Positions 19,889 to 62,160 of a DNA stretch of 64,000 nucleotides are shown here, one piece after another. The notes below the pieces were generated by a model. The model was not told the origin of the DNA. It saw nothing but the letters and a program-made list of their open reading frames with translations, and searched no databases. The stretch is taken from NCBI GenBank assembly GCA_946408175.1, contig CAMJRB010000002.1, forward strand, positions 1 through 64,000, read 5' to 3'. Position 1 is the first letter of the stretch; every line of letters begins with the position of its first letter. The stretch comes from an uncultured Holosporaceae bacterium (GTDB lineage Bacteria; Pseudomonadota; Alphaproteobacteria; RUG11792). A program made the position numbers and the translations under genes.

Positions 19889-20156
19889 TATTACTTCTTT
19901 AAAATACAACATACTTCATTATATATTCTAAGATAGATTGGCAAAATAATCAAGTTTAAAATGTTGATCTTATGTAAAGTAAATAAAATGATTAATAGAA
20001 TAAATAGAAAAATATATAAAATATAAAATATTAAATGAAATATACATTAACTATTCTCTATTAATTATAAAGTATATTTAAATAAAATGAACAATTGAAA
20101 AAAATTAACTATTATTAATAGCTGTAATTATACACATTATCCATTATACATAGTGG

Positions 20157-34217: not shown

Positions 34218-35930
34218 ATGTTAAATAAGGTATTTAACATAGTACTTGTTAGTACACTTGCATATTGCATACAACAGGAAAATGCAATAGCTCAAAATCC
34301 AGACAACATGATTGTAATGGCTGGTAACAGTAATGAAAATAATTTCACTTCATTTACTGTAAATTCCGTTTTACTAGAGAATAAAGAGCCTGTAGATGAT
34401 GAACTCGGCGGATACATGAAGTTATATAAAAGCGACAATAAGCTCAACAATGGACTAGCATTAATTGGTGAAAAGAATAATGATGATAAATTCAGATTTA
34501 GAGACTATGCAAAACTAGATATACAGGATGGCACGACATTCACATTAGGTGATAGTAGTACTTTGAGAATACAAAGAGATGGAAAATTAATAAATAATGG
34601 AGTATTAGTATTAGAAGATAATTCTACATTAATTGCTCCACCAATTGATGTTAAGACTAATTCTAAAGATTTTACTAGAAATCGCAAACTAAAACATGGA
34701 ATCAATAATGAAAAAGGAACTATAAAGATTAATAAAGGTAGTAAAGTATATTGGCAAGAAAACGACAATAGTCCTGCAGTCAAAACAACAATTAATAAAG
34801 GCAAAGTAGATTTTAGTGATTTTTTCGAGAATGAATTTTTAGACTTCAATGCTTTACCAGAACCAGAGAATTGGATGATAAAACTTGAAGGAACTACAAT
34901 AAGGCTATTTGACCCTACTAACCAAAATGTTAATGATGATGTACTTGATAGCATTGGATCATTTAAAAACGTTTATATTGGAGAAGGGTGTAAATTAGAT
35001 TATACACCATATATGTCAGCTGGTGTATATAAACTTCCAGAAAACAGACCGATCGGCAGAAAAATATTACTAAAAGACACTGTTGTGCGTGGTAGAACAA
35101 CTGACAACAACATTGACCCAGATTCGATTAAAAGGTTATTTGAAGATGACGGTCAAAACTTAATAATAGAACAGGCTCCTAAACAAGATGCTAGTAAGTA
35201 TTCGCTCAAGGATTTATGTAATGAATTTAATAAAAAAGGAGAAGTAACAATTTTCAATACTGATTATTACACTCTTACTAAGAATAATAAAGAATTTGAT
35301 CAAAATCTAACCAATGACTGGAATAATACAATAGGCAAAGGTGAATTACATTTATACAAAGATCAATTGGATACAAACAATTCTTATGATATGTATTTTA
35401 TATTTGATGGTACAAAAGAGGTATCATTTATATTAAATGGTTTTACATACGATATGATAGCAGATATAACAGACGATAACAAAAAACCCAAAGTGTATTT
35501 GCATGGGGACTGGTCAAATTGTGCTGTATTAATAAATGGACAAGTGAATAATCAGAAAAACGGCAAAGTAGTAATCAATAACTTTATACAAAAATCCGAT
35601 GGGCCATCTCCTCACCTAACAACAAATGTGAATACATATTATAGAACATATGATAATGCAAGCTTACGCTTTTATGCAGGTGACAACAATGTTGCCAGTT
35701 TAGATAAATTAGTAATAGGAGCAACTGACAGTCCATCAGTAGTAGAAATTGCTAAATCAGAAGGAGCAATAGATGATAATCCATATGCACAAAGTATTAG
35801 AGTAAATAAATTTTCTATGAAGAACAGCCAATCTAAGTTTACAATAAAATCTGGACAAACACTAGAGATTGGTCCAAAAACAGGAAATGAAATAATACCT
35901 GCATCAGAATTAGACAATGAAGATGATTAA
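34218..35930 (+). CDS. Secreted protein with a beta-helix-like N-terminal half
   Basis: 570 residues. The signal peptide ends N-A-I-A-Q-N. Residues about 85-150 show short repeats typical of parallel beta-helices in adhesins and autotransporters (K-L-D-I-Q-D-G-T-T-F-T-L-G-D-S-S-T-L-R-I, then G-V-L-V-L-E-D-N-S-T-L-I). Similar strands recur near the C-terminus (F-S-M-K-N-S-Q-S-K-F-T-I-K-S-G-Q-T-L-E-I). There is no autotransporter barrel and no LPXTG-like anchor, so it is either freely secreted or loosely surface-bound. Strong ribosome binding and a GC-rich terminator suggest high expression. Codon choice is less extreme than in neighbours. Adhesin is a guess. Confidence 0.65.
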   Translation: MLNKVFNIVLVSTLAYCIQQENAIAQNPDNMIVMAGNSNENNFTSFTVNSVLLENKEPVDDELGGYMKLYKSDNKLNNGLALIGEKNNDDKFRFRDYAKLDIQDGTTFTLGDSSTLRIQRDGKLINNGVLVLEDNSTLIAPPIDVKTNSKDFTRNRKLKHGINNEKGTIKINKGSKVYWQENDNSPAVKTTINKGKVDFSDFFENEFLDFNALPEPENWMIKLEGTTIRLFDPTNQNVNDDVLDSIGSFKNVYIGEGCKLDYTPYMSAGVYKLPENRPIGRKILLKDTVVRGRTTDNNIDPDSIKRLFEDDGQNLIIEQAPKQDASKYSLKDLCNEFNKKGEVTIFNTDYYTLTKNNKEFDQNLTNDWNNTIGKGELHLYKDQLDTNNSYDMYFIFDGTKEVSFILNGFTYDMIADITDDNKKPKVYLHGDWSNCAVLINGQVNNQKNGKVVINNFIQKSDGPSPHLTTNVNTYYRTYDNASLRFYAGDNNVASLDKLVIGATDSPSVVEIAKSEGAIDDNPYAQSIRVNKFSMKNSQSKFTIKSGQTLEIGPKTGNEIIPASELDNEDD

Positions 35931-37612: not shown

Positions 37613-38184
37613 TCTTTTATTTTCATCAGTACCTCTTGTTGGTTAGTTTTTGTGTGTTGCTTTTTTAGAGGTGTAGTTAGTTTTTTGTTTTCATATTAAA
37701 TGTTATAATTAATGTAGTATTTTGCACTCTTATACCTAATTATAAACAACAAGGAATAAAATTCTGTTTTAAACAGTATAATGAGATGGTATATTCAGAA
37801 TACAATATTATTGAAATTACTCAAGAACTAATTAAAAAATTGACTATCCATTTATTATTTTAATATGCATAGATTTTGAAGTTTTATAACGATTTATAGA
37901 TGCATTAATATAATTTTTATAAAATATACGATAACAAAAGTAATTGCTAATAATAAAATATTCATTAGTAATTAAATATTATTTGAGACTTAGTTAAATA
38001 TTAATATTTATTATTATAAATAACTAGTCTTTACTGTTATATTAAGTGTATAGTACGTTATACATTCTTTATTTAAAATAATTTTAATATACTGAAGATT
38101 TTTTCCAAGCGAACTAGTTAATAATATGTTAATATATAATTGAAAAGTAAATATTCTTGTAGTGTTATAGAAAGGAGTATAATT
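37613..38184. other. Gene-poor interval after the tRNA pair
   Basis: About 570 bases. A long-loop inverted repeat (ACCTCT near 37631 with AGAGGT near 37666) follows tRNA-Phe. A startless open frame ending at 37863 reads somewhat protein-like (Y-K-Q-Q-G-I-K-F-C-F...E-I-T-Q-E-L-I-K-K-L) and could be a gene remnant, but chance is as likely. The last bases hold the GAAAGGAG Shine-Dalgarno of the next gene. Confidence 0.35.
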
Positions 38185-39030
38185 ATGAAATTTACTTTTA
38201 CTAAATCTTTATTAGTAGCTTCTGTATTAGCAGTAACTACTTCCTATAGTTTTGAGCAACATGATGTGTTGGTGGAGAATTCCGTTATTAATAATTCTGC
38301 AACGCTTAGTAAGATTGGTCAGTTTGTATTGAATACAGAAGATATAGAAAATAATCAAGCATTGTGCAATGAGCTCGCTAAATATATAAACAATAATGAA
38401 TTACTTAGCAGTGATTGTCAACTGAGTGATATTAAGAAATTCCTTAATCAAATATCAGGTAAAGATACTAACTATAATAATATTAGTTTGGTATTTTCAA
38501 AAATAGCTCAGAAAAATGCCAAAGATGATGGTAATAGTAACAAACTGGTTCAGGATAATAAATTCAGTATACTAAGTAAGTTATTTGCTGCATTTAATAA
38601 TAATTTTAATCCGTTAAGTAATGATGATATATTCACTTATCAATTTGAAGAAATATTCTCTGCTGTGATTTATTATCTTTTGAATGATAACAATTCTACT
38701 AATGAGAACAATCAATCTACTACTGATACTAAAGCATTAAATTCCAAATTGGATATAATAAAAAATTTAAAAACAGTTGAAAATAAGAAGCAATTAAATG
38801 AAGCATTGGATTCAATCCAATATAGTAATTATTATAATAATGTTTATATAAAACAAGTTGAAGCCTCTGATTTGTCCAAGAAAGGTAAAGATTCAGTAGC
38901 TGATTTTTATAAAAAAGAACACATAGAGATAGAATCATGGAATCTATTTATTGAAGTAATACAAGATATAAAGTTATTAGAGACCTTCAACCAATTTGTA
39001 CACTTTATTAATATGTTAAAGATGTCATAA
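38185..39030 (+). CDS. Secreted hypothetical protein
   Basis: 281 residues from the ATG at 38185, which has a strong GAAAGGAG Shine-Dalgarno 11 bp upstream; the frame opens earlier at a TTG (38140) but that is unlikely. The signal peptide is M-K-F-T-F-T-K-S-L-L-V-A-S-V-L-A-V-T-T-S-Y-S-F. The mature part is helical, Asn/Lys/Asp-rich, with a low-complexity Asn/Thr/Ser stretch at about 185-200 and no cysteine motif. A hairpin follows the stop. No family recognised. The good ribosome binding site suggests solid expression. Confidence 0.65.
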   Translation: MKFTFTKSLLVASVLAVTTSYSFEQHDVLVENSVINNSATLSKIGQFVLNTEDIENNQALCNELAKYINNNELLSSDCQLSDIKKFLNQISGKDTNYNNISLVFSKIAQKNAKDDGNSNKLVQDNKFSILSKLFAAFNNNFNPLSNDDIFTYQFEEIFSAVIYYLLNDNNSTNENNQSTTDTKALNSKLDIIKNLKTVENKKQLNEALDSIQYSNYYNNVYIKQVEASDLSKKGKDSVADFYKKEHIEIESWNLFIEVIQDIKLLETFNQFVHFINMLKMS

Positions 39031-40131: not shown

Positions 40132-40731
40132 ATGGCAAATAGTAAACAACACTGGTTAGATAGAATTAGAACACCTAGGGTTCATATAACATATGATATT
40201 GAAATAGGAACAGCAATAGAAAAGAGAGAATTACCATTTGTCATGGGAGTGCTAGCCGATTTGTCTGGGACTCCTGAAAAACCCTTACCTGATCTCAAGT
40301 TTAGAAAATTCGTTGAAGTAGACAGGGATAACTTTAATGATATTATGAAAATAATTAATCCTAGATTAGTTATAAGAATAAATAATCATTTATCTGAAGA
40401 TGTTCCTGAAACTAGTTTAGAATTAACTTTTAATTGTATGGAAGATTTTGAGCCTAGTAATTTAGCTAAAAATGTTCCGTCATTATCTGAGTTGTATAAG
40501 AAAAGAACTAATTTAAAAAACTTAATAACTAAATTAGATAACAATGATTTATTAGCACAATTACTAACGCAATTAATGGTAAGTGAAACTGAACTGGAAA
40601 GACTTCGAAAAGAATTATTAGATATATCAGATAAGACTGAAGAAGGTACTGATACTAGTACAGGAAGTGAAAATAGTCCTCCTCAAGAAGAAGCAAGTAA
40701 TTCTGAAGTAGAAACCAATAAAGAGGGATAA
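40132..40731 (+). CDS. tssB: Type VI secretion sheath small subunit TssB (VipA)
   Basis: 199 residues. The family core is clear: R-V-H-I-T-Y-D-I-E-I-G, F-V-M-G-V-L-A-D-L-S-G, F-V-E-V-D-R-D-N-F-N-D-I-M-K, and the C-terminal helical S-E-T-E-L-E-R-L-R-K-E-L. The final 35 residues are an acidic Ser/Thr/Glu-rich tail beyond the usual fold. TssB and TssC co-assemble into the contractile sheath in the cytoplasm. The stop overlaps the tssC start by one base (TAATG). No other T6SS component (TssJLM, TssK, ClpV, Hcp, VgrG) is within the window, so they must be elsewhere or the sheath belongs to a reduced system. Confidence 0.94.
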   Translation: MANSKQHWLDRIRTPRVHITYDIEIGTAIEKRELPFVMGVLADLSGTPEKPLPDLKFRKFVEVDRDNFNDIMKIINPRLVIRINNHLSEDVPETSLELTFNCMEDFEPSNLAKNVPSLSELYKKRTNLKNLITKLDNNDLLAQLLTQLMVSETELERLRKELLDISDKTEEGTDTSTGSENSPPQEEASNSEVETNKEG

Positions 40732-42194
40732 TGCCAGAGAGTATAATAATCCCTCAGGATGCTAAAATCTTAGATATCATATTACATGAATGTAAAATGG
40801 TACGATTTCCTAATCAGGAAAGCAGTGCTATTGAAATGCTTACTGAATTTGTAAATGAAGTATATGATAATAAAGATAAAATACCTGAAGTTAATATTAT
40901 AGCATTTTTAGTAAGAAGAATTGTAGAAATAGATAAAAAATTAGAAGCTCAAATTAATGAGATATTGCATAATGCAGAGTTTCAAAAACTAGAAGGTAGT
41001 TGGAGAGGATTTCAATACTTAGTAATGAATACTGAAACTGGCATTAGATTAAAAATTAAATTACTTAATGCTACTTTAGATGAATTACGAACAGACTTAA
41101 CCAAAGCTATAGAATTTGACCAAAGTAGTCTGTTTAAAAAAATTTATGAAGAAGAATATGGAACTTTCGGTGGTACTCCTTATTCTTGTTTATTGGGAGA
41201 TTTTTATTTCTCAAGCAATCCTCAAGATATTAGTTTTCTAGAATTAATGTCTGGATTGGCCGCTGCTGCTCATACTCCATTTATTACTTCAGTATCACCA
41301 TTGTTTTTTAATTTAGATAAATTTGAGGATTTGCCATATCCTAGAGATTTAACTAAATTATTTGAATCCCCTGATTATGTTAAATGGAATGCATTCAGGG
41401 AATCTGAGGATTCAAGATATGTATCATTAGTATTACCACGCATATTAATGCGGTTACCTTACGGTGATAATACTTGTCCGGTAGTTGGTTTTGATTTTCA
41501 AGAAGAAGTTGGAGTAGGGGAAACATCTAAATTCTGTTGGGGAAATGCAGTCTATGCTGTAGGTCAGAGAATTACTAATGCTTTTGCTTTATATAGCTGG
41601 ACTGCAGCTATTAGAGGTGTAGAAAATGGAGGAGTACTAGAAGGACTTCCAGCTTATGTATTTACTACAACTGAGGGGAACAAAGAAATAAAGTGTCCTA
41701 CAGAAGTAGCTATTACTGATAGAAGAGAAAAGGAATTAAGTGATTTAGGTTTTTTATGTATTTGCTATTGTAAAGGTAGTGATTACGCTGTATTATTCAG
41801 TTCTCAAACTACTCAAAAAACTAAAATGTATAATACTGATGAAGCTAATGCTAATGCTGCTTTATCTGCTAGACTAACTTACTTACTAGCCGCTTCAAGA
41901 TTTGCCCATTATATAAAAATAATAATGCGGGAAAAAATAGGGTCATTTTTAACTAAAGAGAATGTAGAAACGTATTTAAATAATTGGCTATCGGGATATA
42001 TACTACTTAATGATGATGCTTCAGCTACAGTAAAAGCACAATATCCATTAAGAGAAGGAAGAATTGATATATATGACGTTCCAGGTTCACCAGGTAAGTA
42101 TAAATCTGTTATATATTTAAGACCACATTTCCAAATGGAAGAATTAACAGCTTCTATTAGACTAGTAGCAACTTTGCCTGGGAAAGCTGGATAA
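40731..42194 (+). CDS. tssC: Type VI secretion sheath large subunit TssC (VipB)
   Basis: 487 residues, the normal length. Signatures: L-E-G-S-W-R-G-F-Q-Y-L-V near residue 85, E-E-E-Y-G-T-F-G-G-T-P-Y-S-C-L-L-G-D-F-Y, L-P-R-I-L-M-R-L-P-Y-G, F-C-W-G-N-A-V-Y-A-V-G. The C-terminal P-L-R-E-G-R-I-D-I-Y-D-V-P-G-S-P-G is the gp25-like docking end. Its sheath contraction drives the T6SS tube. It overlaps tssB by one base; an HtrA-like gene starts 6 bp after its stop, so all three should be one transcript. Confidence 0.95.
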   Translation: MPESIIIPQDAKILDIILHECKMVRFPNQESSAIEMLTEFVNEVYDNKDKIPEVNIIAFLVRRIVEIDKKLEAQINEILHNAEFQKLEGSWRGFQYLVMNTETGIRLKIKLLNATLDELRTDLTKAIEFDQSSLFKKIYEEEYGTFGGTPYSCLLGDFYFSSNPQDISFLELMSGLAAAAHTPFITSVSPLFFNLDKFEDLPYPRDLTKLFESPDYVKWNAFRESEDSRYVSLVLPRILMRLPYGDNTCPVVGFDFQEEVGVGETSKFCWGNAVYAVGQRITNAFALYSWTAAIRGVENGGVLEGLPAYVFTTTEGNKEIKCPTEVAITDRREKELSDLGFLCICYCKGSDYAVLFSSQTTQKTKMYNTDEANANAALSARLTYLLAASRFAHYIKIIMREKIGSFLTKENVETYLNNWLSGYILLNDDASATVKAQYPLREGRIDIYDVPGSPGKYKSVIYLRPHFQMEELTASIRLVATLPGKAG

Positions 42195-42200
42195 TACAAT

Positions 42201-44168
42201 ATGAATAGACTGTATATTGTATTTATTACATTATTATTATACTGTAATAATTGTGTAAATTCTTGGCAATTATTTGATAGTAAGGATATTTTTAAAAAAT
42301 TACAGGATTCATCAACAAAAGATATAAAAAATACTGATTGGAAAAGGATAGTTGAAAAAAAATCTTCAAGTGTAGTTTTAATATATACAATTAGCGATAA
42401 AGGCAAAGATAAATATAACTTTTATAATTCTGCAATACAACCACGTATTAATAAAACAGATTACAAATATGGAGTAACTAATGGAGTGATTGTGTCACCT
42501 GATGGAATAGTAGTAACAACCTATACAGCTACTATGAATTCAGATAAATACATAGTAGTAATAGATAGTGAAAAAAATCAAGATGATGAATCGTATGAAA
42601 TAAATGGGTATGTAGACGAAATAAATGAAGATAAAGAACAAATAGATTGTGAAGACGATATAGAAGAAGATTCAATAGAAACAGATGCTGAAACTGATAA
42701 TGAGGATGAAGAAGAGAATGAAGATGCAAAACCATCTTATACCATAGATAATTTGGATGATGAAACTACAGATATAAATTCAATGGAAACAGATGCTGAA
42801 ACTGATAATGAGGATGAAGAAGAGAATAAAGATGCAAAACCATCTGATATCATAGATAATTGGTATGATGACAATACAGAGCTAAATTCATTAGAAACAG
42901 AAGTAAAAACTGATAATGAAGATATAGAAGAAAAATCAAATAACAGTACTATAATAGAAACTGAAGAGAATATTAATAAAAGCAATGACAATAATAGTAT
43001 AAAAACAGATAAGGCGAGTATAAATCAATCAGAACAATTAAATTCTAATAGAAAAAAGTCACCTATAGTAGAAACTCGGCAATCTGATTCTGAACTAATA
43101 AATTTAAGTAAAGAATTAGAATTAATGAATAAGAAACTCAAAAAAATTAAATTAAAAAATAAAAATGGCATAATACATAACCATGACAATTGTAATAACA
43201 AAATAAATAAAAAGAAAAAATCAAATATACAATTGGATAATAATACATACTATGCAGAAGTATTAACTGCTATTCCTGAGTTAAATATTGTTGTTCTCAA
43301 ATTACAATGTAATAAAAGTGAAAAATTTAATCATTTTAATATAATTAATGATTCGTTTTTTCAAACAAAAACTGAAAAAGAAACAATTTTATTAGATAGT
43401 GCTATAGTAGTAGGAAAATGTAGAGGAGAACACTATGTACACGCTCGTAGACCCTATAATTCAAAAAATAAATTTGATATTACAAAATCAATGGTAGGAA
43501 GCATTGCATATAAAACAATAGACGGACTTCCTACCTTGATACTATATACTCCAATGGTCGGTAGTGTATTTCCAGAAAATCAAGGAGGCGCTATTATACG
43601 GAGTGATGGAGAATTAATTGGTATTCCTTGTGGAAATTGGAGTATTAGCAATTACAAGAATAATAAAAAATCTAGAATAATATACTATGATTGTTTTTCA
43701 AATATTCCCCAAAGTTATGCTATCCCAGCATCAACAATAAAAAAAATATTATCGCTAATATCTCTTAAATTGCCTGGTCCTATAAACCCGCATTGTGGTA
43801 TCACTGTTGAAAAGCTTGAGTCCCCTCAAAAGAAATTTTTAAAAGCATTCTTTGATAAGAGTCGTAAAGACTTAAAAAATGAATATTTAAAAAAATTACA
43901 GAATACTTATGGTTTCGAGAATTACTCATCCATTTCCAAATACATTAATAATGGCCAGCTTGGTGTTGCTGTAAGTAAAATTACATCAGAATCACCAGCT
44001 GAGAAGGCAAATATTCATACAGGAGATATTCTATTAAATCTCAATACAGAATGTATTACGAAGCCTAAAACTTTTTATAATCTTGAGGCTGACAATATTG
44101 ATAAATCTGTTATTAATTTAACATTGCTTAGAAAAAACGAACTTGTAATAATGGAAGTTAAAAGATAA
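42201..44168 (+). CDS. Exported HtrA/DegP-like protein with lost catalytic triad and a PDZ domain
   Basis: 655 residues; signal peptide ending N-C-V-N-S. The trypsin-like fold aligns by eye with DegP: N-G-V-I-V-S-P-D-G-I-V-V-T-T-Y-T (94-109), P-E-L-N-I-V-V-L-K-L (about 360), E-N-Q-G-G-A-I-I-R-S-D-G-E-L-I-G-I (from 459) and Y-A-I-P. The catalytic His position is T109, Asp is N362, and Ser is Q461, so proteolysis is unlikely. An acidic, repeat-bearing insertion of about 200 residues separates the first two catalytic positions. A PDZ domain (G-V-A-V-S-K-I-T-S-E-S-P-A-E-K-A, G-D-I-L-L-N-L-N) ends the protein. The gene is 6 bp after tssC. A chaperone or scaffold role is inferred; no precedent in T6SS loci is known to me. 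Confidence 0.75.
   Translation: MNRLYIVFITLLLYCNNCVNSWQLFDSKDIFKKLQDSSTKDIKNTDWKRIVEKKSSSVVLIYTISDKGKDKYNFYNSAIQPRINKTDYKYGVTNGVIVSPDGIVVTTYTATMNSDKYIVVIDSEKNQDDESYEINGYVDEINEDKEQIDCEDDIEEDSIETDAETDNEDEEENEDAKPSYTIDNLDDETTDINSMETDAETDNEDEEENKDAKPSDIIDNWYDDNTELNSLETEVKTDNEDIEEKSNNSTIIETEENINKSNDNNSIKTDKASINQSEQLNSNRKKSPIVETRQSDSELINLSKELELMNKKLKKIKLKNKNGIIHNHDNCNNKINKKKKSNIQLDNNTYYAEVLTAIPELNIVVLKLQCNKSEKFNHFNIINDSFFQTKTEKETILLDSAIVVGKCRGEHYVHARRPYNSKNKFDITKSMVGSIAYKTIDGLPTLILYTPMVGSVFPENQGGAIIRSDGELIGIPCGNWSISNYKNNKKSRIIYYDCFSNIPQSYAIPASTIKKILSLISLKLPGPINPHCGITVEKLESPQKKFLKAFFDKSRKDLKNEYLKKLQNTYGFENYSSISKYINNGQLGVAVSKITSESPAEKANIHTGDILLNLNTECITKPKTFYNLEADNIDKSVINLTLLRKNELVIMEVKR
42672..42950 (+). 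repeat. 108-bp in-frame tandem repeat encoding an acidic 36-residue unit
   Basis: Units start at 42672, 42780 and 42888, exactly 108 bp apart. The first two are almost identical at DNA level; the third is partial and diverged. Each encodes S-x-E-T-D-A-E-T-D-N-E-D-E-E-E-N followed by a D-A-K-P-S and I-D-N segment. The copy number could change by slippage without breaking the frame. Confidence 0.8.
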
Positions 44169-47521: not shown

Positions 47522-48883
47522 TCAATCTCTTTCCCAAGAATCATCATTATCTTTATTACTTTTATCTTCGCTATCACTTGGTGGTTCAATAATTATATTA
47601 TATTTTTTCATATAACTAAAAATAATCTCAGGAACAATCCACGTTTGTCCATTCTCTAATTTATTTTGTAAATAACTGAGTACTATAGCTGGAATACCAT
47701 TTTGATCATCAAACAACCCTTCTGGAAATTTTTTATATGCAGCCAATGTTACCTTAAATGTTTCACCATTTTCAATATACTTATAAATATTATCGTGTAT
47801 ATGCTTACTCTTAATCTGTGCTAATAAATTGTTCTCTTCATTTTCATTATTATTTTCATACTTATTATTATCACAATTACTTTTATCCAGAATACGCAAT
47901 TTATCTATTTTTGACTTTTTAAATACTTTAGTTAACTCTTTTACTAATTTACTTTGCACGTTTTGTTCATCAAAGTACTTATTAACTATGTCTGAATAAG
48001 ACATATATGTTGGTATATTATCATAGGTTGTTGTATGTTTATCTTCTAATAGTTGTTGAGTTATTGGCAAATTATCAAAACAATTACATATATTGTATAT
48101 AGTATCTTCAATTTTACTTTCCAGTATATTTTTAGATATCCAAGTATTAGGATTATTTAATACAAAGTATTTATTAATTAAGAGTTTTGTAAAATACTTC
48201 AGTATATATTTTGTTTCTTCAGCTAACAAATTATTATAATGATCTCCTTCAACATGTAATGAATCAACAAACCACATTTTTCCATCAATAATTACTGGAA
48301 TTGGCATCATATTCCATTGGTAAACAGATTTATGTGTCCAAGCTTTTTTATCACTATTTTTTATATTAGTCATTATATTTAAAAACAAATTAAATACTAA
48401 TAAATCTTCACATTGATATGGTGTAATAATTTTTTGATTTTGCAATTTTGCTATATTACTTAGTACATTAGTTCTAAGTTGCCAATTATTATTGATAGTA
48501 TTATGAACTAATTGTATTAACCGTTGTAATATATCAGTGTCATTACTATTATAAAATTCCCGAATATTATAAAGATAATTTTTAATTTCTTGAGTTATCG
48601 CTTGTTTATTATTGTCTATTGAATAATTACTATTAAAAAGTTGCATTGTGGTTGCAACTAATTCAGCTCTATCATAAGTAACTTGTTTTGGGCGATTGTT
48701 AATTGTATTGCTAGTATGTGGAACATTATTAATAGGAATATTTTGTGCATTAATAATATTAGTACTAATATCATTAGTATCCATTTTACTTTGCATACAA
48801 TAACAACTACTATTATTTAGTATGGTTCCACAACTTAGTATTATTACTGAAGTTGCTAAAAATTTAATGTAATTTTTAATCAT
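47522..48883 (-). CDS. Secreted hypothetical protein sharing a signal-peptide cassette
   Basis: 453 residues from the ATG at 48883; the frame opens 8 codons earlier. The signal peptide (F-L-A-T-S-V-I-I-L-S-C-G-T-I-L-N-N-S-S-C-Y-C-M-Q-S) matches that of the 17636-19888 gene closely, including the DNA around the start. The mature sequence does not obviously align. The body is helical and Asn/Lys/Ile-rich, with P-I-P-V-I-I-D-G-K-M-W-F-V-D-S-L near residue 190 and an acidic C-terminal tail (D-S-E-D-K-S-N-K-D-N-D-D). No family recognised. Confidence 0.65.
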   Translation of the reverse strand: MIKNYIKFLATSVIILSCGTILNNSSCYCMQSKMDTNDISTNIINAQNIPINNVPHTSNTINNRPKQVTYDRAELVATTMQLFNSNYSIDNNKQAITQEIKNYLYNIREFYNSNDTDILQRLIQLVHNTINNNWQLRTNVLSNIAKLQNQKIITPYQCEDLLVFNLFLNIMTNIKNSDKKAWTHKSVYQWNMMPIPVIIDGKMWFVDSLHVEGDHYNNLLAEETKYILKYFTKLLINKYFVLNNPNTWISKNILESKIEDTIYNICNCFDNLPITQQLLEDKHTTTYDNIPTYMSYSDIVNKYFDEQNVQSKLVKELTKVFKKSKIDKLRILDKSNCDNNKYENNNENEENNLLAQIKSKHIHDNIYKYIENGETFKVTLAAYKKFPEGLFDDQNGIPAIVLSYLQNKLENGQTWIVPEIIFSYMKKYNIIIEPPSDSEDKSNKDNDDSWERD

Positions 48884-48907
48884 TATTACATATTCAAAAT
48901 GAAACAC

Positions 48908-52640: not shown

Positions 52641-54584
52641 TTATTGTTCTTGAAAATACTGCTGTAAATTGTTGATAAATTGTTTATGTATATTTTTTAA
52701 ATACTCATAACACAAATCATATACATGTTTATATATGTCAGCCTTAATCTTTTTGAAGTTCTTAAAATGCACATCATACACTAATTTTTGACAATATAAT
52801 GCTAATAAACAAGCTTTATATAATAAAATTTCATCTTTATTTAAAACACTAGTCTTGTATTTTACATATAATTTTGCTCCTATTTCTTGCAAATACCAAG
52901 GATTCTGTTTTATTTGTAAATTATTGTTAATATCATCTTTATTTAAAACATCAGTATTGTATTTTATATATGATTTTGCTTCTATTTCTGAAACATCCAA
53001 TAGATTGTTCTCATTTTGTAAATTATCATTATTTATTAAGTTATATATGTATTCTACTACTTTAGTAGTATCATTTAAGTCATTTTTAATATTTTCAATA
53101 AGATCATCAGTGTTATATTTGGCTACTGTATTGAATATGTTTCGTAGTTTTTTAAATAATGTAAAATATTCCTCTTTATTTATTTTTTCATATTCCTTAG
53201 TTTCTATTTTATTTAGTGGTATTTCCTGTATAGTTACATCTATTATCTCACTAATTGCTTGATATATGTCTTCTATATCATTTTTGTCTTTGGGGAATGC
53301 TGAATATGTATCATGAAGTACATTGTCCAATTTATCATATACGCCTTTTAAGACTGGAATGTTTTGTATCATATGCAATGCTGTATAGAGTACATGTTTT
53401 GAATCTGCAAAATCCTTATCATTAATTGTATGGAAAGTATCTAACATATTCTTAGTTTCAGTTGTTGCCTTTTGCTTAATTATGTTATTTGTTAAATTAT
53501 ACCAAAACATGAACTGATCTGCAGAGTATTGAGATTTAGGTATACATTTCATACAATCATTTATTGCGAAAGCCAATGGTTTATAAACTCGTAAACACTC
53601 TTTAAATGTAAGTTTGTCATTTGCCTTTTTATTCTGATCTTTTATTTTACTTTCTTTTATTGTATTTTCATTTGAACTATATTGTTCAATTGGAGCTGGA
53701 GGATATTTTATATTCTTTATCTTTTGTAATATATTAATAAAAACCTTATGATCATAATACAGTGTATTTTCATATTCCAGATAATTTGTATTAATTTTGG
53801 TATCATTATATTCCAGTGCTGCTAAGTCACTTATTAAATTATTATATGTATATTCTTCTTTTAATTCCTTAAGGCATGATTTAGTAATTTTTATATTGCG
53901 TTTAATTAAATTAAATAATTTATTTTCTTGTGTATTATTTTTTTTGCGTGGTATTGCTACATCACACTCATATTGATAATTATTCATTCTAAAATTTATG
54001 TGTTTTGAAAACCATTCCATATTTTCTATATCATTTATATCCAGCTTGTCTTTCTCATTTGTAATTAAATTATTTAAGGTAAGTTTTAAAGAAAAAATAT
54101 TACTGATATTTAAATGATGAAGATAAAAATATTTTAAATGAAAATAACTATTACGATAATTAGATATCTTTATTTCATCATCCACTATGTATTTATATAT
54201 AACATCCATTACTTTATCATCATCAAAATTATTATTGTTCTTTAATAGAAAAATATTGACATGTTCTAAATAGTTTTTAAATTGAATTTCATTACTACTA
54301 ACCTCTCTATAATTATTAGTTGCTAATTGTAAATCCCATAAATTTTTATAAGTATTAATAGTGTTTTCTTTTAAAGTGTCAATTGATTCATCATCTAGTT
54401 TTGTATTTTGTAAATTATTTAGATAATTCTTACTATTATTTAAACTAGTTTCGAAGTTTTTCTGTAACTGTACAGTAGTACAATTTACTTGATTTAATGC
54501 ATTATTTATATTACTATTAATTTCCATTGATATACATGAAGATAATAAACATGTACATATTGGTAATAATTTATTAATTAACAT
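52641..54584 (-). CDS. Secreted hypothetical protein with a C-terminal duplicated segment
   Basis: 647 residues; AAGGGGG lies 9 bases before the ATG. The signal peptide ends L-L-S-S-C-I-S-M-E. The body is helical and Lys/Asn-rich. A segment of about 32 residues near 540-600 is duplicated (S-Y-I-K-Y-N-T-D-V-L-N-K-D-D and L-Y-V-K-Y-K-T-S-V-L-N-K-D-E). A P-P-A-P-I-E-Q linker and the K-E-C-L-R-V-Y-K-P-L-A-F-A-I-N-D-C region lie in the middle. It is 48 bp downstream of the next minus-strand gene, so they likely form an operon. No family recognised. Confidence 0.65.
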   Translation of the reverse strand: MLINKLLPICTCLLSSCISMEINSNINNALNQVNCTTVQLQKNFETSLNNSKNYLNNLQNTKLDDESIDTLKENTINTYKNLWDLQLATNNYREVSSNEIQFKNYLEHVNIFLLKNNNNFDDDKVMDVIYKYIVDDEIKISNYRNSYFHLKYFYLHHLNISNIFSLKLTLNNLITNEKDKLDINDIENMEWFSKHINFRMNNYQYECDVAIPRKKNNTQENKLFNLIKRNIKITKSCLKELKEEYTYNNLISDLAALEYNDTKINTNYLEYENTLYYDHKVFINILQKIKNIKYPPAPIEQYSSNENTIKESKIKDQNKKANDKLTFKECLRVYKPLAFAINDCMKCIPKSQYSADQFMFWYNLTNNIIKQKATTETKNMLDTFHTINDKDFADSKHVLYTALHMIQNIPVLKGVYDKLDNVLHDTYSAFPKDKNDIEDIYQAISEIIDVTIQEIPLNKIETKEYEKINKEEYFTLFKKLRNIFNTVAKYNTDDLIENIKNDLNDTTKVVEYIYNLINNDNLQNENNLLDVSEIEAKSYIKYNTDVLNKDDINNNLQIKQNPWYLQEIGAKLYVKYKTSVLNKDEILLYKACLLALYCQKLVYDVHFKNFKKIKADIYKHVYDLCYEYLKNIHKQFINNLQQYFQEQ

Positions 54585-56217: not shown

Positions 56218-57876
56218 ATGTTTGCAGAGAGTATGCAACAAAGAGATGAACTTCATCGTGCTATTTGGGCAATTGCTGATAATCTGAGAGGTAGCATTGA
56301 TGGTTGGGATTTTAAAAATTATGTGCTTGGAACGATGTTCTATCGTTACCTTTCTGAGCGTTTTGCAACATTTATTGAAAAGAATGAGCATGATACTGGA
56401 AATACAGACTTTCGTTATGCAGACATTTCCGACGAAGAAGCTACAAGTATGGGTGACGATAATATCGCTGATGTTATTAATACGATTGGCTTTTTCATGA
56501 AGCCGTCTGAACTGTTCTGTAATGTCTGTAAACGTGCAGCAAAGGATGTTAATCTGAATATGACATTGGAGCATATTTTCAATAATATCGAGGAATCTTC
56601 GAAGGGCACGAAGTCTGAGATGTGTTTTAAGGATTTGTTTGCTGATTTTGATGTAAATAGCAGCCGACTCGGTGCTTCAGTCGCTAAGCGAAATGAACGC
56701 CTTGTAAAACTTCTTCAAGGTATCAGTGATATGAAACTCGGTACAATTAATGACCAAAATATTGATGCATTTGGTGATGCGTATGAGTATCTAATGACAA
56801 TGTATGCATCAGGTGCAGGTAAGTCTGGTGGTGAGTTCTACACGCCTCAGGAAGTATCTGAATTACTAACGCGTCTTGGCACTGTAGGCAAAAAGCATGT
56901 CAATAAAGTATATGATCCTGCATGTGGTTCTGGTTCGCTTCTTTTAAAAGTACAGAAGCTCTTTGGTGATGATAGTATAAAGAATGGCTATTTTGGTCAG
57001 GAAATTAACGTAACTACATATAATCTCTGCCGTATCAATATGTTTCTGCATGGCGTAGACTATGACAGATTTAATATTGCCTGTGATGATACGCTAACAA
57101 ATCCTCAGCATTTGAATGACGCGCCGTTCGAACTTATTGTTTCAAATCCGCCGTATTCTATCAAATGGGTTGGTGATGATAATACGCTGATGATTAATGA
57201 TCCTCGTTATTCACCGGCAGGTGTCCTTGCTCCGAAGAGCAAAGCCGATATGGCATTTATTATGCATGTTCTGTCATGTCTTGCACCGAATGGTGTTGCT
57301 GCTATCGTATGTTTTCCAGGCATTATGTACCGTGGTGGTGCCGAAAAGAAGATTAGAAAGTATCTGATTGATAATAACTTTATTGATACCATCATTCAAC
57401 TTCCTGGGAACTTATTCTTCGGTACTTCTATAGCCACTTGTATTATGGTGATGAAGAAATGTAAGACTGATAACAGTATTTTGTTTATCGATGCTTCGAA
57501 AGAATGCATAAAGGTGACGAATAATAATAAACTGACTTCTGAAAATCTTGATAACATAGTAAAAATGTTTACAGAGAGACAAGATATAGACCATGTGTGC
57601 CGGCTTGTTCCTTATGACTCAGTGAAAAAAGAAGGTTATAATTTGTCAGTTTCTACGTATGTGGAGCCCGAGGATACAAAGGAAAAAGTTGACATTATTA
57701 AGTTGAACGATGAGATTAAGAAGATTGTAGCTCGTGAGCAGGTGCTTAGGTATGAGATTGACAAGATTATCGCTGAGATCGGGGGGGGGGGGGTAAGCTA
57801 TGAGTCGATTAGACGAGTTGCTGAAGCAGTACTGCCCGAATGGCGTGGAATGGAAGCCAATTATATCGTTATGTAA
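56218..57876 (+). CDS. hsdM: Type I restriction-modification DNA methyltransferase HsdM
   Basis: 552 residues. The N-terminal HsdM helical domain (L-R-G-S-I-D-G-W-D-F-K-N-Y-V-L-G) is followed by the methyltransferase core: D233-P-A-C-G-S-G-S-L-L (AdoMet binding) and N310-P-P-Y-S (catalysis). It methylates adenine with HsdS and joins HsdR for cleavage. The 3' end contains 13 consecutive G at 57781-57793. With 13 G the frame continues about 28 residues over hsdS; with 12 G it would stop at once at TAA, 3 bases before the hsdS ATG. Base composition and codons (CGT, CTG, GCG) differ sharply from the genes before 56 kb, indicating transfer. Confidence 0.93.
   Translation: MFAESMQQRDELHRAIWAIADNLRGSIDGWDFKNYVLGTMFYRYLSERFATFIEKNEHDTGNTDFRYADISDEEATSMGDDNIADVINTIGFFMKPSELFCNVCKRAAKDVNLNMTLEHIFNNIEESSKGTKSEMCFKDLFADFDVNSSRLGASVAKRNERLVKLLQGISDMKLGTINDQNIDAFGDAYEYLMTMYASGAGKSGGEFYTPQEVSELLTRLGTVGKKHVNKVYDPACGSGSLLLKVQKLFGDDSIKNGYFGQEINVTTYNLCRINMFLHGVDYDRFNIACDDTLTNPQHLNDAPFELIVSNPPYSIKWVGDDNTLMINDPRYSPAGVLAPKSKADMAFIMHVLSCLAPNGVAAIVCFPGIMYRGGAEKKIRKYLIDNNFIDTIIQLPGNLFFGTSIATCIMVMKKCKTDNSILFIDASKECIKVTNNNKLTSENLDNIVKMFTERQDIDHVCRLVPYDSVKKEGYNLSVSTYVEPEDTKEKVDIIKLNDEIKKIVAREQVLRYEIDKIIAEIGGGGVSYESIRRVAEAVLPEWRGMEANYIVM
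57781..57793 (+). repeat. 13-G homopolymer at the hsdM/hsdS junction
   Basis: A run of 13 G directly precedes GTAAGCTATGAG, where the hsdS ATG is at 57800. Such tracts slip during replication and are a known cause of phase variation. Length calls for homopolymers are error-prone, so the true number may differ. Confidence 0.85.
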
Positions 57877-59014
57877 AATAAATCCTAAATCCGTGGTTGG
57901 ATCAAAGAAAGCTGAGTTGATGCAACAAGGTGATTTTCCGTTTTTTACTAGTGGCTCGAAAATATATTATGTTAATTCATATATGATTGATGGGGAGAAT
58001 ATTTATATCAATGATGGTGGTGTTGCTGGATTTCGGTACTATTGTGGTTGCGCAGCTTATGCTGATCATGTTATCTCGATTAAACCAACAAACGTTATTT
58101 CTAAGTTTATGTATTATTGCTTAGATGCAAAAACAAAGTTTATAAATAATACTTTTTTTCGCGGGACAGGTATTAAGAATATTACGCGCAAAGATTTCTT
58201 TGAAATGAAAGTTCCCGTTCCTCCACTGCCAGTTCAAGAGGAAATTGTCCGTATTCTTGACAAATTTACAGAGCTGGAAGAAGAGCTGGAAGAAGAGCTG
58301 GAACTACGTAAGCTACAGTATGAATGGTATAGAGAACAGTCACTGGTATTCAGTAGGGATGGTAACAATGATGTTCTGCCGTATATTCATAAATTGTTGG
58401 ATGAGCACTGCCCGAATGGCGTGGAATGGAAGCCTTTATGGTCTGTAACTGCATGGGATAAGAAATTTAATGCAGTACAACAAGAACAACAAAAAATTGT
58501 TACATCATTTAAGCATGTATCCGCGAAAGAATTGAAATCATTAGCTTGTGGTGGCAATGTCAAATTGTTATCTACTGGCAATTTTGACGGTTTTACTTCT
58601 CGTGATGTTGCCGGTGATAATGTCAATGAAGGAGAGGTTATTGCTATACCAAGTGGTGGAAATGCTAATGTAAAATATTACAAGGGGTGTTTTGTAGATT
58701 CAGGAAATCTATTGGCAACTGTACTTACTGGTGTTAATTGTCGATATTTGTATTATGTTTTAGATAGTAAACAAGATGTGATTGAGAATTATTATCGAGG
58801 ATCTGGGATTAAACACCCATCAATGTTTGAAATATTGCAGATAATGATTCCAATTCCGCCCCTGCCAGTTCAAGAAGTTATTGTTTCGGCTCTTGATAAT
58901 TTCAGTGCCATGGTAACTAATATTTCTTCAGGACTGCCAGCAGAGATTACTGCACGCCGTAAACAATACGAATATTACAGAGATAAACTTCTCCCTTTTG
59001 AGCCTATGAATTAA
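57800..59014 (+). CDS. hsdS: Type I restriction-modification specificity subunit HsdS
   Basis: 404 residues with two target-recognition domains, each beginning C-P-N-G-V-E-W-K-P and ending P-P-L-P-V-Q-E. The central linker contains T-E-L-E-E-E-L-E-E-E-L-E, encoded by a 12-bp tandem repeat. The final helical stretch is R-R-K-Q-Y-E-Y-Y-R-D-K-L-L. HsdS reads the bipartite DNA target and holds HsdM and HsdR. The start is 6 bases after the G tract, and its first codons overlap the extended hsdM frame. The C-P-N-G-V-E-W-K style is common in gut Firmicutes and Bacteroidetes systems (recalled from the family), fitting a transferred locus. Confidence 0.92.
   Translation: MSRLDELLKQYCPNGVEWKPIISLCKINPKSVVGSKKAELMQQGDFPFFTSGSKIYYVNSYMIDGENIYINDGGVAGFRYYCGCAAYADHVISIKPTNVISKFMYYCLDAKTKFINNTFFRGTGIKNITRKDFFEMKVPVPPLPVQEEIVRILDKFTELEEELEEELELRKLQYEWYREQSLVFSRDGNNDVLPYIHKLLDEHCPNGVEWKPLWSVTAWDKKFNAVQQEQQKIVTSFKHVSAKELKSLACGGNVKLLSTGNFDGFTSRDVAGDNVNEGEVIAIPSGGNANVKYYKGCFVDSGNLLATVLTGVNCRYLYYVLDSKQDVIENYYRGSGIKHPSMFEILQIMIPIPPLPVQEVIVSALDNFSAMVTNISSGLPAEITARRKQYEYYRDKLLPFEPMN
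57831..58434 (+). repeat. 28-bp direct repeat bracketing the first HsdS recognition domain
   Basis: The segments 57831-57858 and 58407-58434 are identical over 28 bp (both begin ACTGCCCGAATGGCG) and encode the C-P-N-G-V-E-W-K-P start of each recognition domain. They are 576 bp apart and in the same frame. Recombination between them would delete one domain. Confidence 0.85.
58271..58303 (+). repeat. 12-bp tandem repeat in the HsdS central linker
   Basis: GAGCTGGAAGAA occurs at 58271 and 58283, and nine more bases match at 58295. The in-frame product is E-L-E-E repeated. In EcoR124 a 12-bp repeat at the same place (T-A-E-L) sets the spacing of the DNA target. Confidence 0.85.
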
Positions 59015-59031
59015 GAAAGGAGACTAATAAC

Positions 59032-62000
59032 ATGCCTTACTTCAATATTGTCGCATCGACAAACGAAAATACTGTTGTTACAGAGTACAAGCCTGTAATA
59101 AATCGTTCTGACCAGTATCAAAGTGAAGCTGCTCTTGAGAAAGAATTTATCAGGATGCTAGTGGAACAGGGCTATGAGCACTTGCATATTCATACTGAAG
59201 AAGAACTTCGTAATAATCTTAGGAAGAAACTGTCTGAGTTAAATAGTTATGAATTCTCAGACACTGAGTGGAATCAGTTTTTGAATAATGTGATTGCTTC
59301 TCAAAATAGTGGTATTGTAGATATTGTAGAGAAGACACGGATGATTCAGGAGGAGCCTGTTCAATGCTTGAGGAGAGATGATGGTTCCAGTCAGAACATT
59401 CGCCTGATTGATAAGGACAATATCCACAAAAATTGTCTTCAGGTTATAAACCAATATGCTATATCTCAGGATGAGGGTGCAAAGCATAATAACCGCTATG
59501 ATGTTACTATTCTTATCAATGGTCTGCCGATAGTACACATAGAGCTCAAGCGTCGCGGTGTTGCTATTCGTGAGGCTTTTAATCAGATTGAACGTTATCA
59601 ACGGAACAGCTTTTGGGCTGGCTCCAGGCTGTTTAAGTATGTGCAGATATTTGTCATCAGTAATGGTACAAATACGAAATATTACTCGAATAGCACCCGT
59701 TGGAATACAATAAAAGATGCAAAAGCAGCGAAGACATGTATGGATAAGACAAGTAATAGTTTTGATTTCACTTGCTATTGGGCGGATGCTAATAATATTA
59801 TTATTCCTGATTTGGTGGACTTTACTAAAACATTTTTTGTAAGGCATACCTTGCTGAATATTCTAACAAAGTATTGTGTATTTACAGCTGAGAATATGTT
59901 GCTTGTTATGCGTCCATATCAGATTACAGCTACAGAGCGTATTATCAATCGTATTGAAATTGCTAGCAATGGTAAGAAATATGGAACAGTTGATGGTGGA
60001 GGCTATATTTGGCATACTACAGGTTCTGGCAAAACATTGACAAGTTTCAAAACAGCCAGTATTGCTTCCAAATTAGATTGTATTGACAAAGTAATGTTTG
60101 TTGTAGATCGTAAGGATCTTGACTATCAGACTATGAAAGAGTATGACCGCTTTGAAAAAGGCGCAGCAAACTCTAATTCTTCTACTGCTGTACTTACGAG
60201 ACAGTTATCTGACCCAAATGCTAAGATAATTATTACAACGATTCAGAAGCTGAGCAATTTTATTGCTAAAAACAAGAACCACGATATTTACAATAAGCAT
60301 GTAGTTATCATCTTTGATGAATGCCATAGATCGCAGTTCGGTGATATGCATAAAGCTATTACAAAAGCCTTTAAGAAATATCATCTTTTCGGTTTTACTG
60401 GTACGCCTATCTTTGCAGCAAATGCTGTCAGCACAACAAATCATAGGCTCATTACGACTGAAGAAATCTTTGGTAAGCAACTTCATGCGTATACAATAGT
60501 TGATGCAATCAATGATAATAATGTATTGCCCTTCAGGGTAGACTATGTTAAAACGATGGATATAGATGCAGAAGTGATTGATGATGAACCGGTAAAGGAT
60601 ATTAATCGTGAGCAGGCATTTAGAGCTCCTGAGCGTATCAAGTTAGTTACGAAATATATCTTGGAGCATTTCGATAAGAAGACGTATCGTGGTAGTAAGA
60701 CTTATACGATGAATGTGCTGACAAATATCAAAGATGTTGCTGCTTCGAAGCAACGTACTATTGACGAAATAAAACAGCAGCAACGTCTGTCTGGTTTCAA
60801 CTCTATCTTTGCAGTTGCTTCTGTTGCTGCTGCAAAGCTGTATTATGCAGAGTTTAAGAAACAGATGGCTGAAGATCCAACAAAGAAACTGCGAGTAGCC
60901 CTTATTTACAGTTATGCTGCAAATGAAGCGGAGAGCGATGATAGCGGTATTCTTGATGAAGAAAATTCTGAGGATACTTCTAACCTAGATGTGGATTCAA
61001 GAAAGTTCTTGGAAGATGCTATTAGCGATTATAATATTATGTTTCATACGAACTATTCAACAGATAATGATACGTTCCAAAACTATTATAAAGATGTGTC
61101 ACTTCGAATGAAGAATAAGGAACTTGATCTGCTTATTGTTGTTAATATGTTCCTAACTGGTTTCGATGCTACAACTTTGAATACATTATGGGTAGACAAG
61201 AATTTGAAGATGCATGGTCTCATCCAGGCATTTAGTCGTACTAATCGTATTCTGAATAGTATCAAGACTTTTGGCAACATTGTATGTTTTCGTAATCTCT
61301 CTGAACGTTTGAATTATGCTATATCACTATTTGGAAATAAAGAAGCTGGTGGCGTCATTCTTATGCGAAGTTTTAAAGATTATTATTTCGGATATGAAGA
61401 TGATAATGGCAAGAACCAGATAGGATTTAAGGACATAGTTGAGCAATTGGAAAAAAAATATCCTTTGTATGAACCTGATATCATTGGCGAACAGAACAAA
61501 AAGGAGTTTTTGAAGTTGTTCGGGGCGTTCTTGAGGATGAGAAATATCCTGTCATCTTTTGACGAATTTGAAGGCAAGGAAATCCTAAGCGAACGTGACT
61601 TGCAGGATTATATGAGCCGTTATCAGGATACATATCAGTGGATTAAGGAGCATAGAGAAAAACATGATAGTACAAATGTCATTGATGACATTGTGTATGA
61701 AATCGAACTGGTAAAGCAAATTGCTATTAATATCGATTATATTCTAATGCTTGTGGCGAAATATAAAGAGACACATAGCGAAGATAAAGATGTCCTGGTA
61801 TCTATACGGAAAGCAATGGATTCTTCCCCGAATTTGCGTAGCAAGAAGGCACTTATTGAAGAATTTATTGCTGGTCTAAATGATATAGATGATGTTGTGA
61901 ATTATTGGCAAGAGTTCGTAACCGACAGCAAAGAAAAGGCTTTGGCTGAAATTATTCAGGAAGAAAATTTAAAGCCTGAAGAGACAAGGAACTTTATTGA

Positions 62001-62160
62001 GGAATCACTCCAGAATGGAGAAATCAAGACGACAGGAACCAATATTGATAACCTTCTTCAGCCTGTTTCGAGGTTTGGCGCTGGGAACCGAGCACAAAAG
62101 AAGGGAAATGTCATTGAGAAGTTGCAGAAATTCTTCGAGATGTTTTTTGGCACTCTGTAA
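59032..62160 (+). CDS. hsdR: Type I restriction endonuclease subunit HsdR
   Basis: 1042 residues, normal length. The N-terminal nuclease has D157 and E171-L-K173 (PD-(D/E)xK type). The motor domain has Walker A G331-S-G-K-T, the D-E-C-H-R-S helicase motif II and G-F-T-G-T-P motif III, with later Q-A-F-S-R-T-N-R motif VI. The C-terminal region binds HsdM/HsdS. HsdR translocates DNA and cleaves at a distance from unmethylated targets. All motifs appear intact, so the enzyme should be active if hsdM and hsdS are in phase. GAAAGGAG precedes the ATG. Confidence 0.95.
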   Translation: MPYFNIVASTNENTVVTEYKPVINRSDQYQSEAALEKEFIRMLVEQGYEHLHIHTEEELRNNLRKKLSELNSYEFSDTEWNQFLNNVIASQNSGIVDIVEKTRMIQEEPVQCLRRDDGSSQNIRLIDKDNIHKNCLQVINQYAISQDEGAKHNNRYDVTILINGLPIVHIELKRRGVAIREAFNQIERYQRNSFWAGSRLFKYVQIFVISNGTNTKYYSNSTRWNTIKDAKAAKTCMDKTSNSFDFTCYWADANNIIIPDLVDFTKTFFVRHTLLNILTKYCVFTAENMLLVMRPYQITATERIINRIEIASNGKKYGTVDGGGYIWHTTGSGKTLTSFKTASIASKLDCIDKVMFVVDRKDLDYQTMKEYDRFEKGAANSNSSTAVLTRQLSDPNAKIIITTIQKLSNFIAKNKNHDIYNKHVVIIFDECHRSQFGDMHKAITKAFKKYHLFGFTGTPIFAANAVSTTNHRLITTEEIFGKQLHAYTIVDAINDNNVLPFRVDYVKTMDIDAEVIDDEPVKDINREQAFRAPERIKLVTKYILEHFDKKTYRGSKTYTMNVLTNIKDVAASKQRTIDEIKQQQRLSGFNSIFAVASVAAAKLYYAEFKKQMAEDPTKKLRVALIYSYAANEAESDDSGILDEENSEDTSNLDVDSRKFLEDAISDYNIMFHTNYSTDNDTFQNYYKDVSLRMKNKELDLLIVVNMFLTGFDATTLNTLWVDKNLKMHGLIQAFSRTNRILNSIKTFGNIVCFRNLSERLNYAISLFGNKEAGGVILMRSFKDYYFGYEDDNGKNQIGFKDIVEQLEKKYPLYEPDIIGEQNKKEFLKLFGAFLRMRNILSSFDEFEGKEILSERDLQDYMSRYQDTYQWIKEHREKHDSTNVIDDIVYEIELVKQIAINIDYILMLVAKYKETHSEDKDVLVSIRKAMDSSPNLRSKKALIEEFIAGLNDIDDVVNYWQEFVTDSKEKALAEIIQEENLKPEETRNFIEESLQNGEIKTTGTNIDNLLQPVSRFGAGNRAQKKGNVIEKLQKFFEMFFGTL

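Follow-up and report, generated by a model that had tools for sequence, protein, structure and literature searches.

The tssB-tssC-htrX locus

In a 64,000-nucleotide stretch of an uncultured Holosporaceae bacterium (positions 1 to 64,000 of contig CAMJRB010000002.1, hereafter the window), the two sheath genes of a type VI secretion system (T6SS), tssB and tssC, are followed on the same strand by a gene for an HtrA-like protein which is probably exported and, by its sequence, catalytically dead. We call this protein and its homologues HtrX (gene htrX, 42201-44168 in the window), a label coined here; it is a new HtrA pseudoprotease family fixed in the T6SS sheath operon of an order of gut symbionts. 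The draft genome from which it comes totals 1.11 Mb in 59 contigs and is 90% complete, and its GTDB order consists of a single family with 35 genomes of 0.5-1.1 Mb each, comprising termite-gut 'Holosporales bacterium' metagenome-assembled genomes (MAGs), rumen RUG bins, and MAGs from the goat and roe-deer gut. The features of the locus are the following.

40132-40731, + strand: tssB (VipA), small sheath protein, 199 amino acids (aa); Pfam PF05591, E = 4.3e-48
40731-42194, + strand: tssC (VipB), large sheath protein, 487 aa; Pfam PF05943, E = 5.2e-124, and PF18945
42201-44168, + strand: htrX, probably exported HtrA-like protein, catalytically dead by sequence, 655 aa, ATG start; alignments, and Foldseek matches to DegQ/DegP
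42201-42266, + strand: signal-peptide-like N-terminus, residues 1-22; hydrophobic stretch, hydropathy 2.5
42525-42527, + strand: T109, at the catalytic His position; alignment
42582-43220, + strand: acidic low-complexity insert in the protease-fold domain, residues 128-340; alignment and composition
43284-43286, + strand: N362, at the catalytic Asp position, Asn in 21 of 28 homologues; alignment
43575-43577, + strand: E459, at the oxyanion-hole glycine (chymotrypsin position 193), Glu in 26 of 26 homologues; compare MamO E223
43581-43583, + strand: Q461, at the catalytic Ser position; alignment
43947-44165, + strand: single C-terminal PDZ domain, residues 583-655; PF13180 (PDZ_2), E = 4.1e-7, over the cut-off

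The tssC protein shares 71-86% identity with those of 29 relatives, and its stop codon is separated from the htrX start by 6 bp. Two open reading frames (ORFs) on the minus strand, 41909-42406 over tssC and 42737-42991 over htrX, show no sign of being genes, the second being the reverse of the acidic repeat described below. Promoter and terminator scans gave nothing better than shuffled sequence.

Fold and catalytic residues of HtrX

When the window HtrX was searched as a single sequence, the PDZ_2 match was clear (E = 4e-7) and the protease domain scored weakly (Trypsin_2, E = 0.003), as is expected of a degenerate protease. The HtrX profile nevertheless aligned with that of the lineage's own 26 DegP orthologues with an intact catalytic site at an E-value of 1.7e-22 (hhalign). 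Furthermore, AlphaFold2 modelling of a compact homologue of 413 aa gave a mean predicted local distance difference test score of 79.5, and the best PDB matches found by Foldseek were DegQ/DegP both for this homologue (E = 2.1e-20) and for the window HtrX (E = 6.7e-13). The predicted structures confirm an HtrA fold, that is, a chymotrypsin-like double barrel followed by PDZ, as had been proposed for the gene behind tssC in an earlier reading of these letters (the first-pass annotation). A signal-peptide-like hydrophobic N-terminus, as judged by hydropathy, is present in the window HtrX and in nearly all homologues, and every complete homologue keeps the PDZ domain, including that of genome G005, in which the protease-fold part is eroded.

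The first-pass annotation had also named T109, N362 and Q461 as the residues which replace the catalytic His, Asp and Ser. These were verified letter for letter, and their columns coincide with the triad of DegP in the profile-profile alignment with the intact orthologues. Across the alignment of 28 HtrX homologues, the His column holds D, E, S, T, N, Q, K, A, I and a single H; the Asp column holds N (21), G (5), P (1) and D (1); and the Ser column holds A, H, E, T, N, G, Q, C and a single S. Each of these lone triad residues belongs to a different homologue, no homologue having more than one and the window HtrX none. The oxyanion-hole glycine, two residues N-terminal of the lost Ser, is replaced by Glu in all of the homologues that have this loop (26 of the 28). 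In MamO, a magnetosome protein of magnetotactic bacteria that is proven to be a pseudoprotease and carries Glu at the same position, the crystal structure shows that the active conformation is forbidden and the oxyanion hole blocked (PMC4794232). A triad relocated elsewhere in the fold was also looked for and rejected, as no column of the HtrX alignment holds a conserved His. HtrX has neither the His-Asp-Ser triad nor the Gly193 of active HtrA serine proteases, and we infer that it lacks proteolytic activity. Judged from these columns HtrX is catalytically dead, and SPECIFICALLY so.

HtrX is akin to MamO in that both are alphaproteobacterial proteins of HtrA fold which lost catalysis and were recruited to a lineage-specific machine (PMC4794232), and in that both carry Glu at position 193 (E223 in MamO, E459 in HtrX). 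On the other hand, in HtrX all three triad residues are gone, a PDZ domain is present and the TauE-like transporter domain is lacking, and the protein scores 16-38 bits (37.6 or less) against the NCBIfam MamO model, the cut-off of which is 800; the change of Gly193 to Glu in HtrX was apparently independent of MamO. With DegS, DegP and DegQ it shares the fold (Foldseek E = 2e-20), the signal-peptide-like N-terminus and the succession of protease-fold domain and PDZ, and with DegS in particular the single PDZ, but it differs from them in having at most one triad residue and Glu for Gly193, and it falls far under every NCBIfam HtrA cut-off.

The acidic insert lies between the segments which carry the His and Asp positions of the protease fold. 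It contains 31% Asp plus Glu over residues 128-340, is largely predicted to be disordered, and includes a tandem repeat of 108 bp (36 aa) in 2.4 copies at 42670-42931. The insertion that had been described as splitting the protease domain is thus real, but as a family-wide domain it was rejected; it is missing in all 27 relatives aligned, including the genome of the same genus, and is therefore specific to the window species. Judged by this distribution it is a recent loop expansion and not a feature of the HtrX family.

Distribution, linkage to the T6SS and selection

Among the 35 genomes of the order tssC is present in 30, and in all 30, which span 18 genera, HtrX adjoins it, some of the loci being cut by contig ends. 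In 28 of them the gene directly 3' of tssC is an HtrX homologue of ~376-655 aa (one of them divided between two contigs); in the other two (G030 and G033) the contig ends inside htrX. The gap between tssC and htrX ranges from -29 to +20 bp. Gene clustering of the neighbourhoods found tssB-tssC-htrX alone to be common to all, with plsY upstream in 7; the flanks are otherwise shuffled between genera, and downstream almost nothing is held in common beyond the genus. The remaining T6SS genes are dispersed, tssK-tssL-tssM being grouped elsewhere and vgrG standing alone elsewhere. The three-gene block is therefore kept against rearrangement, and HtrX shows, in every tssC-positive genome, the conserved linkage to T6SS core genes that characterises a T6SS component. 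It may be argued that the neighbourhood is an inherited accident and HtrX a house-keeping protein unrelated to the T6SS, as the block came down from one ancestor and the 30 cases are not 30 independent events. Yet the block has been kept while the surrounding gene order was shuffled over 18 genera and the other T6SS genes were dispersed, and we consider an accident improbable.

HtrX homologues scattered away from tssBC were looked for and none was found. When 385 genomes drawn from the class were searched, five kin from the lineage matched clearly, and the sole match from outside the lineage was partial (70 bits) and confined to the C-terminal, DegP-like half of HtrX; on this sample a wide alphaproteobacterial distribution was rejected. 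The tie to the T6SS of the symbiont group, as the first-pass annotation had worded it, thus holds for all 30 tssC-positive genomes but is limited to one order-level gut lineage, other Holosporales having hcp in its place.

Pairwise ratios of nonsynonymous to synonymous substitution rates (dN/dS) of htrX lie mostly at 0.10-0.24 and reach 0.47 in the window's genus; those of tssC are 0.01-0.07. The gene is under purifying selection, yet fast-changing. A chance ORF or a pseudogene was rejected, the frame being conserved across 18 genera with dN/dS below 1; the earlier view of a preserved non-enzymatic protein, not a decayed gene, agrees with these values (~0.1-0.5). That htrX is the fastest-evolving gene of the operon and has gained a large acidic insert in one species would suit an exported or delivered factor directed at the protist host, for which the sheath operon would be no more than the place of its gene. 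Such a role appears quite unlikely for a protein whose Sec-type N-terminus is unlike the classical exit of T6SS cargo from the cytoplasm and whose core positions are invariant across 18 genera.

The T6SS cluster of Holosporales has been described as tssB-tssC-hcp, with the third gene identified as that of Hcp (PMC8163844). The locus in the order of the window is similar in that the pair is followed by a third gene, and tssK-tssL-tssM and vgrG lie elsewhere, but it differs in that the slot after tssC is occupied by htrX and not hcp, no Hcp is detectable, and a conserved tail has been added to the C-terminus of TssM. The sister Holosporales loci examined agree with this description: the gene 3' of tssC encodes ~147-202 aa, and it matches Hcp in those few of the tested cases in which Pfam is able to recognise it. 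Among the 35 genomes of the order no Hcp was found by Pfam Hcp or by a Holosporales Hcp-like profile (used without a positive control); nor did the surroundings of vgrG yield one. The alignment of the Holosporales Hcp-like set with canonical Hcp was weak (hhalign, 27% probability), so the identity of this set rests mainly on position and on the published assignment (PMC8163844). The order has TssB, TssC, TssK, TssL, TssM and VgrG but no detectable Hcp, and its tube protein is possibly hidden or replaced. HtrX sits exactly in the hcp slot, and one could suppose that it replaced Hcp as the inner tube protein. We regard this as very improbable indeed: HtrX has no Pfam match to Hcp (TssD, PF05638), it has a signal-peptide-like N-terminus, a PDZ domain and an HtrA fold with no Hcp ring, it evolves fast, and Hcp may just be too divergent to detect in this lineage. 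According to a 2025 review the T6SS of Holosporales is non-standard, with TssD and TssJ seemingly missing (PMC11909080), and HtrX thus adds a lineage-specific part to a T6SS which was unusual already.

DegP, TssM and the possible role of HtrX

An ordinary two-PDZ DegP with His, Asp and Ser intact is present in 26 of 28 genomes of the lineage. In both genomes of the window's genus, however, the DegP orthologue has His changed to Asn, Asp to Asn and Ser to Val or Ile (L172:745-2439, G000:C11:12373-14064; L174 for G001). The window's genome yielded no further Trypsin_2 domain, and going by these sequences the genus may be without any active HtrA. At L261 (G000:C11) the dead degP precedes yidC and vgrG by ~3 kb, all on one strand; in the sister genome yidC is followed by vgrG, but degP is on a separate contig. 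These observations bear on the idea that HtrX is a pseudo-enzyme regulator of active DegP, similar to MamO, which promotes MamE-dependent proteolysis. An inactive HtrA controlling an active one has a precedent (PMC4794232), and most genomes of the lineage have an intact DegP to be controlled. But htrX stays with tssBC and not with degP, and HtrX has been kept in the window's genus where DegP itself is dead, which argues against HtrX as a mere regulator of active DegP; we give this explanation little probability.

The TssM proteins of the lineage (PF14331) are 1,400-1,600 aa long and are encoded after tssK-tssL; an apparent absence of TssM in a PF06761 search was a false negative. Beyond the end of the non-lineage TssMs with which they were compared, these proteins (~1,460-1,600 aa) carry a low-complexity, disordered-looking C-terminal extension, for example at L206:6557-11365. 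In the 24 genomes whose tails were compared, the last ten residues are conserved, approximately as [IV]-[ET]-[IV]-[SA]-E-E-P-I-[E/G]-COOH, in 22 of 24 complete proteins, and the 30 residues before the motif are mostly unconserved. Non-lineage TssMs with complete C-termini, few in number, all lack the motif, and among 1,184 neighbourhood ORFs (not deduplicated) an ending of EEPI(E/G) type occurs in TssM proteins only. The two exceptions are G005, which is nested in the TssM tree and has the most divergent HtrX, degenerate and with the catalytic loop deleted, and G014, in which neither tssBC nor HtrX was found. The G014 genome is 96% complete and has tssK, TssM and vgrG but no tssB, tssC or htrX that we could find, which is due either to a gap in the assembly or to a system without a sheath. 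A PDZ ligand would be expected to take this form, with a conserved peptide at the C-terminus of a low-complexity tail, and the TssM tail is thereby a candidate partner of HtrX; as a ligand it is a tentative proposal. The short TssL tail, which ends in L-[IV] in several genomes and often in G-[AP]-L-[IV]-COOH, is an alternative candidate.

Taken together, HtrX is very probably a dead protein functionally tied to the T6SS. The best explanation of the whole is that it acts as a periplasmic non-enzymatic adaptor of a divergent T6SS, to which we assign a probability of roughly 0.55; the signal-peptide-like N-terminus, the retained PDZ and the co-variation with the TssM tail make the adaptor its most likely role. 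The first-pass annotation, which had proposed a periplasmic scaffold or chaperone, is to this extent partly supported. In the lineage's ancestor an HtrA of DegS-like layout would have ceased to be catalytic, and it would have been captured in the tssBC operon, in the slot held by hcp in sister Holosporales. The gaps of -29 to +20 bp suggest that htrX is co-transcribed with the sheath genes. The protein would be exported by Sec and act in the periplasm without cutting, its PDZ groove or dead substrate cleft gripping a peptide of the trans-envelope complex. The likeliest client would be the added TssM tail, [IV]-x-[IV]-x-E-E-P-I-[E/G]-COOH, and by holding it HtrX would steady or cap the periplasmic portion of a complex presumed to be without the usual TssJ. 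Helpers of the TssJLM complex in the periplasm or outer membrane, such as MltE, TagX and TssJ, are similarly envelope accessory factors of the T6SS, but these are muramidases or peptidases, or a lipoprotein, and none is an HtrA pseudoprotease. In the literature we found no T6SS-linked HtrA pseudoprotease and no link between PDZ and TssM.

Several observations weigh against an adaptor that holds the TssM tail. The motif ends in Gly or Glu after Ile, which is not the classical hydrophobic C-terminus for the PDZ of an HtrA, and the TssL tail is the better fit to a PDZ ligand, though it shows no co-variation with HtrX. The co-absence of HtrX and the TssM motif concerns two genomes only (Fisher p ~0.005, ignoring phylogeny), and the periplasmic location of the TssM C-terminus is taken from canonical topology. 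Moreover, the dN of htrX is several to more than 10 times that of tssC, an uncommon rate for a core component of a machine, and the constraint is weakest in the window species itself, as seen in its dN/dS of 0.47.

The chaperone activity of HtrA proteins is independent of catalysis, as in DegP S210A. HtrX could thus be a non-proteolytic periplasmic chaperone for T6SS effectors or envelope proteins, its link to tssBC being regulatory and serving co-production; the signal-peptide-like N-terminus and the PDZ would be retained in such a protein, and fast sequence change suits changing clients. However, a single PDZ makes cages of DegP type unlikely, the loading of T6SS effectors normally takes place in the cytoplasm, and the invariant Glu193 together with the conserved GKxxG and F425 suggests one specific function over generic holding. 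We think a chaperone possible but rather unlikely. For the periplasmic adaptor, the most specific form would be that HtrX clamps the new TssM tail and so replaces the missing TssJ-type outer anchor, in a trans-envelope complex re-engineered in protist symbionts; this remains speculative and is, in our estimate, doubtful.

Elsewhere in the window, a full type I restriction-modification operon (HsdM, HsdS and HsdR; 56218-62160) is present, in a symbiont genome of 1.1 Mb. Four large ORFs of 461-758 aa have no Pfam match over the cut-off (17636-19912 and 52641-54584 and 47522-48907 on the minus strand, 34218-35930 on the plus strand) and are candidates for lineage-specific host-interaction proteins. 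An orphan protein of 296 aa with a signal-peptide-like start and no family over the cut-off is encoded at 38140-39030, 5' of plsY-tssB.

The T6SS is regarded as the best candidate for the action of Holosporales on their protist hosts (PMC11909080), and HtrX in the hcp slot, together with the altered TssM, offers a concrete start for finding what replaced the standard T6SS parts. A genus living without any active HtrA would, if true, be unusual for a Gram-negative bacterium. After MamO, HtrX is a further natural example in which an HtrA has become a machine part without catalysis.
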